A stretch of 64,000 nt of DNA from NCBI GenBank assembly GCA_902525575.1, contig CABZHU010000004.1, positions 1 to 64,000 on the forward strand, written 5' to 3'. Below are positions 5,410 through 18,368 of the stretch, piece by piece. The number at the start of each line of letters is the position of its first letter. The stretch's first letter is position 1. The position numbers and the translations under genes are program-made. The notes under the pieces are model-generated. The model was not told the origin of the DNA. It searched no databases and saw only the letters and a list, made by a program, of their open reading frames with translations. Source of the DNA: an uncultured Pelagibacteraceae bacterium (GTDB lineage: Bacteria > Pseudomonadota > Alphaproteobacteria > Pelagibacterales > AG-422-B15).

Positions 5410-6424
5410 AGATTTTCAAATAGAAAAAATAGTAAAAGAGAATAAAGGTTTTTTACCTTTTTTGATTTATGGGCCAAACGAGGGGTTAGCAAGGGATCAT
5501 ATCAAAAAAATTAAAAGTGACTATTTAAATGATGTTGATTTTGAAGAGGTCTCTATAACAGGGAAAAGTCTTGATCTAAATCCTGACATTCTTGAAACTT
5601 CAGCAAGTTCAATTTCCATGTTTAATAGCTATAAACTCATTATTCTAGAGTCACTCAAAGATAAGAATATCTCAGAGCTTGAAAGAGTTATCGATTCGGC
5701 TCCCACTCAAACAATGCTGATCGTCAGAGCTGACAATCTCAAAAAAACTTCTAAACTCAGGAAATTTTTTGAGAGCAATTCACAATGTTATGCATTGGCA
5801 TGTTATGAGGATGATGCTAAATCAATGATGAGGCTGATTGATAGTTTCGTGAAAGAAAATAGTATTTCAATTGATCGCGATATAAAAAACTATCTCATGC
5901 AAACCTTAAGTACTGATCGTATGATCAGTTATAATGAACTTCAAAAAATCAGTTTATTTTATACGAATGTTGATGCTACTCCAAATCTTGAGGAAGTAAA
6001 AAATTTACTCAATGATGCAAGTTCAAATAATCTTCAGAAAATGAATGAGTCAGTGATGTATGGAAACACTGCTAAAAGCTCAAATATCATTAGTAAACTG
6101 TTATCCGAGGGAAATAATCCAATTTCTATTCTACGCAGTCTCGTCAATTACCTCAAAAGAGTTCACAAAGTAAAAGTAGAAATGAAAAAAGGGAGTAATT
6201 TTGATACTGCAATAAAGTTTTTAAGGCCTCCCTTATTTTGGAAAGATAAAGATAATTTTCATCAGCACTGCACCCGTTGGCCTTTAAATAAAATTGAGAG
6301 AAATCTATCTCAACTTCTTGATGCTGAAATTAATTGTAAAACCAATAATAAATTATCAAACGTTCTTTGTGAACGTTCAATACTGACAATTTGCCACGAG
6401 GGTAAGCGGCGTTTTCAAAATTAG
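5399..6424 (+). CDS. holA: DNA polymerase III subunit delta
   Basis: LIYGPNEGLARD N-terminus and HolA-like length; ATG at 5399 preferred over the TTG at 5381. Confidence 0.88.
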   Translation: MIIKDFQIEKIVKENKGFLPFLIYGPNEGLARDHIKKIKSDYLNDVDFEEVSITGKSLDLNPDILETSASSISMFNSYKLIILESLKDKNISELERVIDSAPTQTMLIVRADNLKKTSKLRKFFESNSQCYALACYEDDAKSMMRLIDSFVKENSISIDRDIKNYLMQTLSTDRMISYNELQKISLFYTNVDATPNLEEVKNLLNDASSNNLQKMNESVMYGNTAKSSNIISKLLSEGNNPISILRSLVNYLKRVHKVKVEMKKGSNFDTAIKFLRPPLFWKDKDNFHQHCTRWPLNKIERNLSQLLDAEINCKTNNKLSNVLCERSILTICHEGKRRFQN

Positions 6425-7281
6425 ATTTTAAGTTTTTGGGTGACCATTTCTAATTGATCAAGCGTTTTGTAATCAATTTTTATACTACCGCCTTTTTTAC
6501 CTTTATGATTTATATTGATGGTCAAGCCAAGTTTTTCTGAAATTTTATTTTCAAGATCAATTGTATCAGGATCTTTTAGTCTTAATTTTTTAATAATACC
6601 CTTTTTGTCTTTTGCTAGATTTTCTGCATCTCTTACGCTTAAGTTTTCATTAATAATTTTTTCTGCTAGTTGCTCTGGAAATGCACTGTTCATAATTGCG
6701 CGTGCATGCCCTGATGATATTTTTCCCTCAGTTATCATATCTTGGATGGATTGTGGCAAGGATAATAATCGAATGATATTGGCTATATGACTCCTGCTTT
6801 TTCCCACAATTCCTGACAAATCTTCTTGGGTATGACCATGATTTTCGATCAATCTTTTATAACCTGCAGCTTCTTCAATTGGTGAAAGATCCGATCGTTG
6901 AACGTTTTCAATGATAGCAATTTCGAGTGCTTCAGTATCATTAAAGTTTCTTATAACAACGGGCACCTCGTGTAGTTGTGCAATTTGTGCTGCACGCCAT
7001 CTTCTTTCCCCGGCAATAATTTCATAACTATTGGCATCATAGGGCGATGGTCTAACCACTAATGGTTGCACTAACCCTTTTGCTTTTATAGAGTCAGCCA
7101 ATTCATTAATACTATTTTTATTAAACAATCTTCTTGGTTGAGAGGGACTTGGTTTTAAATTAGCAATTGGTATTTTTATTTCTTGACCAACGTTACTATT
7201 TTTTGTTTGTACAGTTTCTGTATCTCCCATTAAAGATGAAAGACCACGACCTAAGCCTTTTTTTGTTGTGTTTGTAACCAC
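6421..7281 (-). CDS. parB: Chromosome-partitioning protein ParB
   Basis: KKGLGRGLSSLMG start, GERRWRAAQ and ENVQRSDLSPIEEA motifs; next to parA. Confidence 0.97.
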   Translation of the reverse strand: MVTNTTKKGLGRGLSSLMGDTETVQTKNSNVGQEIKIPIANLKPSPSQPRRLFNKNSINELADSIKAKGLVQPLVVRPSPYDANSYEIIAGERRWRAAQIAQLHEVPVVIRNFNDTEALEIAIIENVQRSDLSPIEEAAGYKRLIENHGHTQEDLSGIVGKSRSHIANIIRLLSLPQSIQDMITEGKISSGHARAIMNSAFPEQLAEKIINENLSVRDAENLAKDKKGIIKKLRLKDPDTIDLENKISEKLGLTININHKGKKGGSIKIDYKTLDQLEMVTQKLKI

Positions 7282-8069
7282 TATGCTGCCTCTTGTTCTT
7301 TGTTTTGTTTAATAACTTCGTTTGCAAGTCTTAAATAAGCTTGACTACCTGATGCTCTTTGATCATAGATTAAAGCAGGCATGCCGAATGATGGAGCTTC
7401 TGAAACTCTTACATTTCGAGGTATAATGGTTTCATACACTTGCTCTCTTAAATGATTTCTAACATCTGTCGCGACTTGAGAAGATAATTTGTTTCTGCTG
7501 TCGTACATCGTCAACACAATCCCATCAATAGATAAACCAGGATTTAAATTCTGTCTCACGCGCTCAATTGTTTTAATTAACTGACTAAGACCTTCGAGTG
7601 CAAAAAATTCACATTGCAACGGAACAATAATTGCATTGGCCGTCGTCATGGCCATCACCGTCAACAAGCTTAACGCGGGTGGGCAATCAATAAAAATAAA
7701 ATCAAACTCATTTAATTTTTCATTTGCGTTAAAAATATTTTTTAATGTGAAAGCTCGATCATTAACATCAGCAAGCTCAGGTTCAATCCCAGATAAATCA
7801 ACTGTTGAAGGAATTAAAAAAAGATTTTCAATTTCAGTTTTTCGAATGGAATCTGAAATGTTTGCTTGTCCTGCTAATACTTCATAAATAGAGTTTTGCC
7901 TATCGCTGTAATTGACCCCTAAACCAGTGCTTGCATTGCCCTGAGGGTCTAAATCAATAATTAATACTTTTTGGCCTGTTGCTGCGAGGGCTGTGGATAA
8001 GTTTATAGCTGTGGTCGTCTTTCCGACCCCACCTTTTTGATTTGAAATAGCAATTATTTTTCTTTTCAT
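7281..8069 (-). CDS. parA: Chromosome-partitioning ATPase ParA
   Basis: Deviant Walker A NQKGGVGKTTTAINL. Confidence 0.97.
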   Translation of the reverse strand: MKRKIIAISNQKGGVGKTTTAINLSTALAATGQKVLIIDLDPQGNASTGLGVNYSDRQNSIYEVLAGQANISDSIRKTEIENLFLIPSTVDLSGIEPELADVNDRAFTLKNIFNANEKLNEFDFIFIDCPPALSLLTVMAMTTANAIIVPLQCEFFALEGLSQLIKTIERVRQNLNPGLSIDGIVLTMYDSRNKLSSQVATDVRNHLREQVYETIIPRNVRVSEAPSFGMPALIYDQRASGSQAYLRLANEVIKQNKEQEAA

Positions 8070-8070
8070 A

Positions 8071-8694
8071 CTAAGTCATTGATTTTATTACATTATTAAG
8101 TTCTAAAATATAAGATCCCTTTTCAACACTATTTTCGTGCAAGTTATGATCAAATTTCCAACATTTAGTGGCTTCATCAATCTCATCATCTATATGTATA
8201 CCTTTATGAAAAAGGAAAGTAGTACTTTTTTTTGATATATTATAACTTATTGATAATAAATCATTTAATCGTCCAACTGCTCTGGCTAAAACAACATCAA
8301 ATTTTTGATTCGTTGCTTTCTCAGCTTTATGGGGAATCACATAGGTATTCTTGAGTTTTAGTTGGTCAATACAATGCTCTAAAAATTCTGCTCTTTTTCT
8401 TCTATTTTCACATAAAAATATTGAATTTTCCCCATTATAAAACAATGATAACGGTATTCCAGGAAGTCCTGCTCCGCTTCCAATATCAATTATGTTTTGT
8501 TTATTTTCACGAATCAAATCACTTATTCGGAGCGAATCATAAAAATGCCTAATCCAAAGAAGGTTTTTGTCCTTTTTTGATATAAGGCTTTGCTTTTCTG
8601 CTAGTATTAGTGTTCTGTATGCATCGAGTTTATTGATTGTTTCACGTGAAACATTACTTTTTAGCTCCATAAGAGCTTCTAGCGAATCCTCCAT
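8071..8694 (-). CDS. rsmG: 16S rRNA (guanine527-N7)-methyltransferase RsmG
   Basis: IDIGSGAGLPGIPL motif; NVSRET peptide; gidB position between mnmG and parA. Confidence 0.95.
   Translation of the reverse strand: MEDSLEALMELKSNVSRETINKLDAYRTLILAEKQSLISKKDKNLLWIRHFYDSLRISDLIRENKQNIIDIGSGAGLPGIPLSLFYNGENSIFLCENRRKRAEFLEHCIDQLKLKNTYVIPHKAEKATNQKFDVVLARAVGRLNDLLSISYNISKKSTTFLFHKGIHIDDEIDEATKCWKFDHNLHENSVEKGSYILELNNVIKSMT
8638..8653. promoter_or_regulatory. parS centromere site
   Basis: Exact TGTTTCACGTGAAACA 16-bp palindrome inside rsmG, close to parAB. Confidence 0.95.
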
Positions 8695-11958: not shown

Positions 11959-12516
11959 TTAATCCCATTTAGTCACAAAGTCACTTAATTCTAATTCAGG
12001 TATTCTTTTTTCAGATCCTTCTGGCGTCCCGACGTATAAATAACCAAGGACTTTTTCATTTTCTTGAAGGCCTAAGTAAGAGGAAATTTTTTCATCGAGA
12101 GCTAAAGCACCCGTTCTCCACATTCCTCCAAATTTAAGAGCGCTAAGTGCCAATAGAATATTTTGTGCTGCAGCTGCTGTTGACATAATTTGTTCAATCT
12201 CAGGAACCTTTGGATGTTCTGTTATATGAGATATTAAGATGATTATCATTGGTGCTCGGAAAGGCGCGTTTTTATACTTTTCAACTTTTTGTTGATCGCC
12301 GCCTGCAATATGATCATTAGCAAATTGAGAGAATATTTCAGACAATTTTCTAATTCCATCACCTTTAACCTCTATAAACCTCGATGGCCTCAACCAAGCG
12401 TGATCTGGTGCTCGTAAGGCTGCCTTGTATACAAGCTGCATCTGTTCATCTGATGGAACAGGCTCTGAGAGTACTCTGGGCGAATTTCTTGAAATAATAT
12501 TTTCTAATGCATCCAT
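11959..12516 (-). CDS. Nitroreductase family protein
   Basis: Nitroreductase fold signature (RAPDHAWLRPSRF; GGMWRTGAL). Confidence 0.88.
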   Translation of the reverse strand: MDALENIISRNSPRVLSEPVPSDEQMQLVYKAALRAPDHAWLRPSRFIEVKGDGIRKLSEIFSQFANDHIAGGDQQKVEKYKNAPFRAPMIIILISHITEHPKVPEIEQIMSTAAAAQNILLALSALKFGGMWRTGALALDEKISSYLGLQENEKVLGYLYVGTPEGSEKRIPELELSDFVTKWD

Positions 12517-14962: not shown

Positions 14963-15487
14963 TCAAATTTCTGATACCTTTTTAGCAAATTGCTCTACTT
15001 TTTTCCAATTTGTAAAGTCATATGTATTAGACAAGTCGGTAGGGCCTGAAGTAAGCCACATAATAAGACGAATTATATGCTTATCAAAAAAACCATATCT
15101 TGGATAATCGATTTTTCCAGCAAACACAGATATTTCCTTTGGGTTCCATTGAGAAAGCGCTAAAAATTTTTTTGTGTAGGGGTTTGTCGATGGTGAACCC
15201 TTCTCTGAATTTCTTGCTACAGCGTTCACACTAAAGAAGGCGTTCTTTTTAGCTTCGAGTATTGAAATATTTTCTTTTATAAACTTGTATAGTTCTTTCT
15301 TATGTTTTCCGTATCTGATGCTCGCGCCTATAACTATCCTATCAAACATCATGAGATTTTCATCAAATGCCTGATTTAAACTTATGAGTTTTGTATGAGA
15401 TGAATCATTTAGGATGCTGACGATGTGGTTACAAATTTTTTTTGTATGACCGTCTGTTGTTGAATATATAATTAAGCACTTCTCCAT
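14963..15487 (-). CDS. hemG: Flavodoxin-type protoporphyrinogen IX dehydrogenase HemG
   Basis: IYSTTDGHTKKI FMN loop; VIGASIRYGKHKKEL, VNAVARNSEKGSPSTNPYTKKFL and IDYPRYGFFDKHIIRLIM match HemG; next to hemH/hemE. Confidence 0.9.
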   Translation of the reverse strand: MEKCLIIYSTTDGHTKKICNHIVSILNDSSHTKLISLNQAFDENLMMFDRIVIGASIRYGKHKKELYKFIKENISILEAKKNAFFSVNAVARNSEKGSPSTNPYTKKFLALSQWNPKEISVFAGKIDYPRYGFFDKHIIRLIMWLTSGPTDLSNTYDFTNWKKVEQFAKKVSEI

Positions 15488-15493
15488 GATATT

Positions 15494-16498
15494 TTACATA
15501 ACTGAAATATGTTCGTTCAACAGTGTATTGATAAAATTAATTTGCTCATCTGAGTCATTTAGACATGGTATATAATGAAATTTATTACCGCCTGCTTTTA
15601 AAAATATTTCTTTATTTTCCTCGTCAATTTCTTCAATTGTTTCCAGGCAATCAACACTAAAGGCAGGAGCAATTACCATGATATCCTTTATGCCTTCAGA
15701 AGGCAATCGTTCCATAGTCTCACTTGTGTAAGGCTTCAACCACTCTGCTGGTCCAAAACGAGATTGAAAAGTTGTAATGTATTCTTCATCTTTCAAATTT
15801 AATTTTTCAGCAACTAGGCGAGTAGTTTTTTGACAAAAGCATTGGTAGGGATCGCCTAATGTAAAATTTCTCTTAGGTATACCGTGATACGTAAAGATTA
15901 TTTTTTGTGGCCTGTGATTAGAGATTTTATTTTTTATTGTTGCGACCAAGCCTGATATATAACTGTCATGATCGTGGTAGCTGTTTATGAAATTAAGGGC
16001 AGGAACCCATCTCCACTTGGAAAGAACTCGGGTTACCTCGTCAAAAACACTGCCTGTTGTTGTTCCTGAATACTGAGGAAACAAGGGAAGAATTATAAGA
16101 CTTTGACAATTTTTTTCCTTAAGTGAAAGAAGTGCTTTTTCCATATTGGGTTTTCCGTAGCGCATTGCTAGTTCAATTTCAATATTTTCTGGAACAGTTC
16201 TTTTTAGCTTTTCTAATATCCTCTCAGAGTAAACAAGAAGTGGTGATCCCTTGTCTGTCCATACTGACTTATAAAGCTTTGCTGATTTTGCTGGACGAAA
16301 AGTAAGGATTATTCCATTTAAAATGAACCACCAAATAAACTTTGGAATTTCAATGACTCTGCCATCTGATAAAAATTCTTTTAAAAAACTTCGTACGTCG
16401 CGAGTTTTATAACTTTCTGGTGTCCCCAAGTTACAAATAAGAACTCCAATTTTTTTTTGTCTTCCGTGTTCATAGTCTTGTGTACCAATAAATTTCAT
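15494..16498 (-). CDS. hemH: Ferrochelatase
   Basis: GVLICNLGTPES; FTYHGIPKR; FQSRFGPAEWLKPYT. Confidence 0.97.
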   Translation of the reverse strand: MKFIGTQDYEHGRQKKIGVLICNLGTPESYKTRDVRSFLKEFLSDGRVIEIPKFIWWFILNGIILTFRPAKSAKLYKSVWTDKGSPLLVYSERILEKLKRTVPENIEIELAMRYGKPNMEKALLSLKEKNCQSLIILPLFPQYSGTTTGSVFDEVTRVLSKWRWVPALNFINSYHDHDSYISGLVATIKNKISNHRPQKIIFTYHGIPKRNFTLGDPYQCFCQKTTRLVAEKLNLKDEEYITTFQSRFGPAEWLKPYTSETMERLPSEGIKDIMVIAPAFSVDCLETIEEIDEENKEIFLKAGGNKFHYIPCLNDSDEQINFINTLLNEHISVM

Positions 16499-16506
16499 TT
16501 TTTTCT

Positions 16507-17490
16507 TTAATTATTTCTTACCTTTTGTACGAGTCTCTCCACATTTTTTATAGGCGTCTTAGGAAGAACACCGTGACCTAGATTAAAAATATGTGGGTAA
16601 TCACGAAAGGCAAGTAAAATTTTTTCAAGACCTTTATCCATTTCATCACCTCCATTTAAGAGCAGTTTTGGATGTAGGTTTCCTTGATATGAAATATTTG
16701 GATTTAACAAGTTGAGTTGTTGTAGATTAAAATTATAATCTAAACAAATACAATCGAGTTGATTAATAAATGAGTAATTTTTATAGCCGCTTGTGCTAGC
16801 GTTTCTAGGGAATCCAATTATTGGTATATCGGATTTACTTTTAATTTCTTTTACTATTTTCAGAGTAGGGTCAAGAACCCATTTTTCAAAGAGGTAATCG
16901 TCAAGATCACCAGCAGCAGATTCAAATATTTGAAACGCGTCAATGCCAGCGTTTACTTGTTGGATTGCGTAATTAGAAACTATATCAGTTAGCTCATTAA
17001 TGTGATTGTCTATCCTCTTTTTGTTTTTATTAATAAGATCTTTGTTCATCTGTAATCTTTCTTCTTTATTAAATAAACAATACAATAATGTCGTCCAGGG
17101 TCCGCCCACAAAGCCTATTAAAGGGGTGTCTGATACTTTTTTTATTTTTTCTATTCCTTTTGTTACTGGATCCAGTTTGTGTGACTCAAATTTAAATTTC
17201 TCAATGAATTTAACTTGGGGCCCCATTCCCTCTTTAAAACTAACATCGGACCCGGATGCATAAGGGATCGTCAATATGTCTGAAAACAGTATACAGGCAT
17301 CTAATCCGTATCTTTTAACTGGTTGGAGAGAGATCTCTGCGATCACCTCAGGGTCTAGAAACATTTCCATAAGATCTTTATATTTTTGTCTTATCTTAAT
17401 ATACTCTGGCAAGTGTCTTCCCGCTTGTCTCATTAACCAAATGGGAGTTCTTGTTTTATTGCCTTTTAGTGTTTCTATAAAAATACTCAT
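16507..17490 (-). CDS. hemE: Uroporphyrinogen decarboxylase
   Basis: PIWLMRQAGRHLPEY signature. Confidence 0.97.
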   Translation of the reverse strand: MSIFIETLKGNKTRTPIWLMRQAGRHLPEYIKIRQKYKDLMEMFLDPEVIAEISLQPVKRYGLDACILFSDILTIPYASGSDVSFKEGMGPQVKFIEKFKFESHKLDPVTKGIEKIKKVSDTPLIGFVGGPWTTLLYCLFNKEERLQMNKDLINKNKKRIDNHINELTDIVSNYAIQQVNAGIDAFQIFESAAGDLDDYLFEKWVLDPTLKIVKEIKSKSDIPIIGFPRNASTSGYKNYSFINQLDCICLDYNFNLQQLNLLNPNISYQGNLHPKLLLNGGDEMDKGLEKILLAFRDYPHIFNLGHGVLPKTPIKNVERLVQKVRNN

Positions 17491-17765
17491 ATAATATATA
17501 TATAAGGTAGTATTAGTTTATGTACCTGTGATGATGTGTATATATAAAAACCTCTTATTTGCCCACAAATCAATACATGCCTCTAACAAGGTTATTTAGA
17601 ATATTTGTGATGTTGTCCACAAGGTAGAATTATAGTTAAGTCATTATCAACAGGTGGATGAAAAACAAGAAAACATAGGATAAATAAGCAAAAATATTGT
17701 AAATGCTTAAAAACAGTAAACATATAATATATATCCACATTTATTACCCGGGTTGTTAATAGCTT
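17491..17765. other. Putative chromosomal replication origin (oriC)
   Basis: Largest intergenic gap, AT-rich, between divergent hemE and maf; one-mismatch DnaA-box-like 9-mers TTGTCCACA (17613-17621), TTATCAACA (17644-17652), ATATCCACA (17731-17739), and TGTGTATAT (17535-17543, minus-strand ATATACACA). Confidence 0.75.
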
Positions 17766-18368
17766 ATGAACACACAAATAACACTAGCGTCTAAAAGTCA
17801 AACACGCTCAAGGCTGCTAACAAATGCCAAAATAAAATTTAAGACAGTTGATCATGGTGTTGATGAGGATGAGATTAAATTATCTATGTCAGAAAGCTCA
17901 CCTGAAGATATTGTAACAAGGCTAGCTGAGATGAAGGCTTTAAAGGTATCCATATCGAATGAAGGTTTGGTTATAGGTTCTGATCAAGGATTGGACTTGA
18001 ATGGAAAGCTAGTTAATAAAGCAAAAAACTTTAATGAAGCACACGAACAATTAAAAAGTATGAGTGGACAGGAACACACACTTATAACAACCACGGTCGT
18101 GGCTAAGGAAAACAATATTATTTGGAAATACGTTGATAGAGGAAAAATGAAAATGAGAATTCTTGATGAAAAAGTTATCAAAGAATATTTAGAAAGCGTT
18201 GATGAAAAGATTCTGGGGTTAGTTGGTGTTTATGCGATTGAAGAAGAAGGCATAAAACTATTTGAACATGTTGGTAGTGATTTATTTTCAATACAAGGAC
18301 TATCAATGATACCATTAACACAATTTTTATGGGACAACGGTCTGTTGTTTGAAAACAATGGCCATTGA
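17766..18368 (+). CDS. maf: Maf-family nucleoside triphosphate pyrophosphatase
   Basis: ITLASKSQTRSRLL start; GSDQGLDLNG. Confidence 0.93.
   Translation: MNTQITLASKSQTRSRLLTNAKIKFKTVDHGVDEDEIKLSMSESSPEDIVTRLAEMKALKVSISNEGLVIGSDQGLDLNGKLVNKAKNFNEAHEQLKSMSGQEHTLITTTVVAKENNIIWKYVDRGKMKMRILDEKVIKEYLESVDEKILGLVGVYAIEEEGIKLFEHVGSDLFSIQGLSMIPLTQFLWDNGLLFENNGH

Follow-up and report, generated by a model that had tools for sequence, protein, structure and literature searches.

The hemE–maf spacer as a probable chromosomal replication origin in SAR11 bacteria

The 275-bp spacer between hemE and maf in an uncultured Pelagibacteraceae bacterium raises the question of where chromosome replication starts in this group, and an earlier note on this DNA had proposed that the spacer is the replication origin (oriC). 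The literature that was searched contained no published SAR11 origin; a prior in silico prediction for cultured SAR11 is possible. The stretch analysed (the window, 64,000 nucleotides) lies on contig C4 (65.8 kb) of a 0.94-Mb, 77% complete source genome in 37 contigs, whose close relatives carry the names Pelagibacteraceae or Pelagibacterales, that is, SAR11. Comparisons covered 37 genomes of the source genome's own family, all from one genus (f1), and 23 of a sister family (f2). The spacer alignment took in 32 of the f1 genomes, which represent species of the one genus. The main f1 clades are clade A (11 genomes, including the window's lineage) and clade B, with the 99% complete f1 genome G020 listed apart. 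Genomes within one clade are non-independent samples, and all counts out of 11 for clade A are to be read in that light.

Results

Probable identity of the spacer with a known origin interval

As the earlier note had stated, the hemE–maf spacer is the largest intergenic gap in the window, the next two being 244 and 180 bp, and it is AT-rich (72.7% AT against 67.5% for the window), with the AT content of some other spacers being higher still. It is the point from which transcription diverges. In four f1 contigs the fraction of coding sequence on the plus strand was 0.37–0.49 to the left of the spacer and 0.68–0.70 to the right, with block-permutation P values from <0.001 to 0.03 for this shift. 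The described gene directions, leftward on the hemE side and rightward on the maf side, were found in outline, but the plus-strand genes ogt and apt are interspersed among the minus-strand genes on the hemE side. The features discussed below are collected in Table 1.

Table 1. Features of the window that bear on the proposed origin (positions in the window; in-family counts refer to f1)
Feature	Position	Strand	Evidence or conservation
Putative oriC (whole hemE–maf spacer)	17491..17765	.	271–275 bp in 32 f1 genomes; conservation
hemE, left boundary gene	16507..17490	-	PF01208, E=4.9e-78
maf, right boundary gene	17766..18368	+	PF02545, E=6.4e-37
DnaA-trio-like element CTAATACTA	17508..17516	-	10 nt beyond weak second box ATCATCACA
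Invariant block TTTATGTnCCTGTGnnnnTGTGTATATATAAAA	17517..17549	.	one copy per genome in 29/37 f1 genomes, none in f2
Weak second DnaA box ATCATCACA	17527..17535	-	in tandem with the 17535..17543 box; CACAGG core conserved in alignment
DnaA-like box ATATACACA	17535..17543	-	identical in 32/32 f1 genomes; overlaps weak box ATCATCACA
DnaA-like box TTGCCCACA	17559..17567	+	identical in 31/32; two mismatches from consensus
DnaA-like box TTGTCCACA	17613..17621	+	box-like in 31/32: TTATACACC, TTACCCACA, TTGTTCACA, others
DnaA-like box TTATCAACA	17644..17652	+	exact TTATCCACA here in 8 clade A relatives
Inverted weak box TCATCCACC	17653..17661	-	two mismatches; GGTGGATGA kept in 8 genomes
DnaA-like box ATATCCACA	17731..17739	+	11/11 clade A; nnnCTCACA in most of clade B
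DnaA-like box TTATGAACA over maf start	17764..17772	+	position kept; TTATACACA in G020
parS palindrome TGTTTCACGTGAAACA inside rsmG	8638..8653	.	exact match; genome's only site at ≤1 mismatch
parB	6421..7281	-	PF02195, PF17762, PF23552
parA	7281..8069	-	PF13614, E=7.8e-66

In 56 of 60 relatives hemE was found. The gene order in f2 is hemE, spacer, PPSR (PF03618, COG1806/DUF299) and maf, with a hemE–PPSR spacer of 238–289 bp (19 genomes). The suggestion that PPSR is missing between hemE and maf was borne out, as the gene was found in 0/37 f1 genomes, G020 included, versus 23/23 f2 genomes. Replication origins have been mapped to the hemE–COG1806 interval in Caulobacter and predicted there in Rickettsia (PMC1914354). 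From its synteny with the f2 hemE–PPSR interval, the hemE–maf spacer most plausibly represents that interval with PPSR lost, that is, as the known alphaproteobacterial origin interval minus one flanking gene. In G037 and G040 (f2, genus g2), rho rather than hemE adjoins a 353-bp spacer beside PPSR, and the only hemE match in these genomes lies far off, at 32–33% identity.

Seven elements (a–g), not all of which are required, have been set out for alphaproteobacterial origins (PMC1914354). The boundary genes are homologous to those of relatives (a), being PPSR then maf in f2 and maf alone in f1, and the spacer length is within the 200–1000 bp range (b) in all 32 aligned genomes. Four predicted DnaA sites at one mismatch are conserved in position (c); these outnumber the sites in other intergenic regions (d) in the window, although not in the clade B genome G016. 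AT content exceeds that of the window, which served as the comparison for the genome (e), and conservation among close relatives exceeds that of the comparison sites given below (f). GC skew (g) shifts in raw form in the sampled closed f2 genomes but tracks gene direction. An exact IHF site, also part of (c), was found in 0/32 spacers and a site with one mismatch in 14/32; HU/IHF-family genes exist in the genome. Exact CtrA sites (TTAA-N7-TTAA), as expected of a Caulobacter-type CtrA-controlled origin, were likewise found in 0/32 f1 spacers. By eye, the three OmpR-type regulators in G020 all appeared unlike CtrA, which is a lead only.

Conservation of the spacer

Within clade A the spacer is 88–91% identical, versus 55–71% at maf fourfold sites. 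The maf sites were used as the yardstick because the window's lineage has had part of its hemE replaced; the fourfold sites of hemE itself were misleading in this role and were rejected. In G007, the hemE–maf spacer ranks first among spacers of at least 100 bp (88% identical, compared with 68–78% for the others). Identity between the main clades drops to ~56%, and conservation there is limited to blocks.

Such blocks might instead be promoters or regulator sites, with the spacer being merely a shared regulatory region of hemE and maf. The two genes are transcribed away from each other, each has TATATATA-like stretches close to its start, and divergent spacers can be conserved in streamlined genomes. 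However, a promoter-consensus scan found nothing within the spacer, the spacer exceeds the other G007 spacers of this size in conservation, and the interval is retained in f2 even though the right-hand gene there is PPSR and not maf. Neither DnaA boxes nor CTA triplets are characteristic of promoters, and a purely regulatory spacer is highly improbable. Promoters may coexist with an origin, as at Caulobacter hemE.

DnaA boxes and a trinucleotide element

The four 9-mers that the earlier note had placed one mismatch from TTATCCACA or TTATACACA (17535 on the minus strand; 17613, 17644 and 17731 on the plus strand, by first position) were recovered, and its two weaker 9-mers, with two mismatches, are correctly positioned. 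Four one-mismatch 9-mers compare with 0.59 expected (P=0.003, dinucleotide shuffles), and the spacer holds the densest cluster of the 64-kb window, other separate 275-bp stretches having at most two. If TTATNCACA is allowed as consensus, TTATGAACA becomes a fifth. Counted against an origin is the absence of an exact consensus box from the window spacer, such boxes being present in some relatives only. The clade B spacer of G016 scores only two 9-mers and is not distinguished from the rest of its contig.

The 9-mer TGTGTATAT is unchanged across 32/32 f1 spacers. Apart from this box and TTGCCCACA, the boxes of the 32 genomes are fixed in position with drifting sequence, and 50% of alignment columns within boxes are invariant versus 20% outside. 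Lack of conservation in close relatives, which had been named as grounds for giving up the origin reading, was thus not what the alignment showed for the box positions. A minus-strand box is also found 38–44 nt from hemE in 7 of the 10 f2 genomes scanned, an offset similar to that in f1. DnaA is intact in the source genome and retains GRDHTTV in its canonical DNA-binding domain (domain IV).

Read on the minus strand toward hemE, the spacer presents ATATACACA, the overlapping ATCATCACA, ten bases, CTAATACTA and then a TA-rich stretch. This arrangement fits the DnaA-trio model, in which the gap between box and trio peaks at 10–13 bp (PMC8287927). An in-frame NTA run of three occurs in 11/11 clade A genomes, and a run of at least three with a CTA in 12/19 f2 genomes, compared with ~6% in mononucleotide shuffles. 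Within f2, the 42 nt next to hemE have CTA at ~7 times its frequency in the remaining spacer, with TAG nearly absent. The spacing defined for the bacterial origin unwinding system, BUS (a box, then within 16 bp at least three trinucleotides whose middle base on the bound strand is A), is present in clade A by way of the weak second box; in clade B and G020 the triplets are degenerate and this spacing was not found. By the NTA-run measure, the predicted trio-like element is not family-wide.

parS, dnaA, and strand skew

A parS site was found in 16/16 genomes, 7–19 kb from the spacer, with one site each except for two in G044. The dnaA gene lies 61–65 kb from the spacer; four f1 genomes have it on the maf side, two f2 genomes on the hemE side. 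This switch of side at about equal distance fits an inversion symmetric around an origin in the spacer, as judged from one gene only.

In two closed f2 chromosomes, raw GC skew was on average negative to the left and positive to the right of the spacer, with the cumulative minimum at the spacer when summation began on the far side (20 sampled stretches each, summed by hand). The raw minimum in four f1 contigs lay 37–39 kb toward the hemE side and the window's own at +30 kb, both of which were counted against an origin at the spacer. The GC-skew check that had been proposed gave raw minima at the spacer (two f2) or within ~38 kb of it (four f1) and was not taken to refute the origin reading, but it is weaker evidence than hoped because skew follows gene orientation.

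Leading-minus-lagging GC skew at fourfold sites was −0.06 to +0.04 in f1, mostly with no strand separation. Two genomes of one f2 genus gave opposite signs, +0.093 ± 0.031 in G042 and −0.118 ± 0.028 in G044, each ~3–4 standard errors from zero. Fourfold skew was dropped as a proof of origin; since it is near zero or opposite in sign, skew is a poor origin marker in the SAR11 genomes examined. Pelagibacter skews were already termed atypical in an earlier survey (PMC2031905).

The offset skew minima in contigs of the same genus, together with the distance to dnaA, would suit a true origin elsewhere near by, for example close to dnaA, the hemE–maf interval then being left over from a former origin or serving as a control site that binds DnaA. 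Against this, the 376-kb G016 contig, which includes dnaA, has no DnaA-box cluster of more than two per 275 bp (the spacer itself having only two), parS adjoins the hemE region and not dnaA, and the side switch of dnaA agrees with inversion about the spacer. A displaced origin is very unlikely. Less likely still is a small RNA or small protein encoded in the spacer, which its strong conservation might suggest, as Rfam and tRNA/tmRNA scans of the spacer gave no match and relatives differ by indels of one or two bases that would disrupt any reading frame. A terminator scan also gave no match.

Probable exchange of the origin between lineages

G007 and G011 are sister species with a mutual fourfold identity of mostly 0.7–0.97 and ~0.35 to the window over most of the contig. 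Their DnaA proteins are 98% identical to each other and 80–81% identical to that of the window's genome. From rho to coaE, a ~6-kb tract reaching ~4 kb to the left and 2 kb to the right of the spacer, both genomes match the window's lineage. Fourfold identity of G007 to G014, of the window's lineage, is 0.47–0.73 in this tract, versus 0.24–0.43 to clade B, and across 180 kb the top fourfold windows of the G007–G014 pair fall in this tract. The spacers of G007 and G011 are 88–90% identical to the window's. Because the tract is common to lineages otherwise saturated at fourfold sites, it points to exchange by recombination, and an assembly chimera is unlikely since two independent assemblies carry it. 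Sequence comparison suggests that oriC has probably been swapped between SAR11 lineages by homologous recombination, leaving G007 and G011 with a window-type origin.

The surroundings are also mosaic. In contig C1 of G007, the stretch from rsmG to ogt, at ~−9.1 to −4.9 kb relative to the spacer, is nearer to clade B (fourfold 0.56–0.64) than to clade A, as is the counterpart tract of G011 from rsmG to mnmE. With a clade B-like tract adjoining the clade A-like oriC tract, several apparent recombination events meet around the putative origin.

The heme genes beside the putative origin (14963–17490) vary between close relatives. HemG (menaquinone-dependent protoporphyrinogen dehydrogenase) and one ferrochelatase type are encoded in the window, in G011 and in a few near relatives; G014, G007 and others have HemJ and a different ferrochelatase type (~31% identical). 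The hemE gene itself looks mosaic, with N-terminal halves alike and C-terminal halves divergent. A nitroreductase-like gene (NF008088, below cut-off) at 11959–12516 is shared by the window with only a few near relatives; in G014 a ferredoxin-like ORF of 106 aa takes its place. To the right of ~22 kb, from fxsA on, spacers of G014 and the window are 88–99% identical, with fourfold identity of 0.86–0.96 up to hisB, and from maf to secB the two are more diverged (fourfold ~0.6–0.8). The near-identity beyond fxsA suggests a recent large transfer.

Discussion

The synteny with the hemE–PPSR interval, the conservation of the spacer, the DnaA box with its trinucleotide element and the nearby parS all support the earlier proposal, and the 275-bp hemE–maf spacer is very probably the chromosomal replication origin, with a probability of roughly 0.93. 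In the mechanism we propose, DnaA would occupy five to seven boxes, most of them degenerate, scattered over the spacer, and from the hemE-proximal pair of minus-strand boxes a DnaA filament would grow along the adjoining trinucleotide element. The filament would open the AT-rich stretch beside hemE, where the helicase could load and send forks both ways. ParB at parS, 9 kb off, would then segregate the new origins.

SAR11 bacteria are very abundant in the ocean and strand skew is a poor guide to their origin; the spacer would provide a small, testable one. The position of a SAR11 origin could help in estimating growth rates from coverage slopes and in building replicating vectors. The hemE-side interval has been kept in both SAR11 families examined, and PPSR has been lost in one. 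If the exchange of origins is true, it has produced natural pairs in which one origin type is served by initiators that differ by 20%.

Similarity to known systems is evident in several parts of the locus. The ParABS locus has the usual parA–parB pair and a canonical parS in rsmG <10 kb from the putative origin; it differs in that almost all genomes checked have only one parS. With the BUS, in which a DnaA box is followed by a DnaA-trio (PMC8287927, PMC6669920), the spacer shares tandem boxes, a ~10-nt gap and CTA-type trinucleotides (3'-GAT-5') toward the AT-rich side, whereas this putative element has only three triplets in the window's clade and degenerate ones in clade B and G020. The origins of Wolbachia and Ehrlichia (hemE–COG1253; PMC1914354) have likewise kept hemE and changed the right neighbour, and some of these species have few CtrA sites or none, although the replacement gene is another one and the change in f1 is a loss that exposed maf. 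Unlike Caulobacter crescentus Cori and the Rickettsia prowazekii oriC (hemE–COG1806/RP001; PMC1914354), the f1 interval is without PPSR, has maf as its right boundary and carries no exact CtrA or IHF site. It shares with them hemE as the left boundary, the intergenic size class, AT richness and DnaA boxes, and f2 has the same COG1806/PPSR right boundary.
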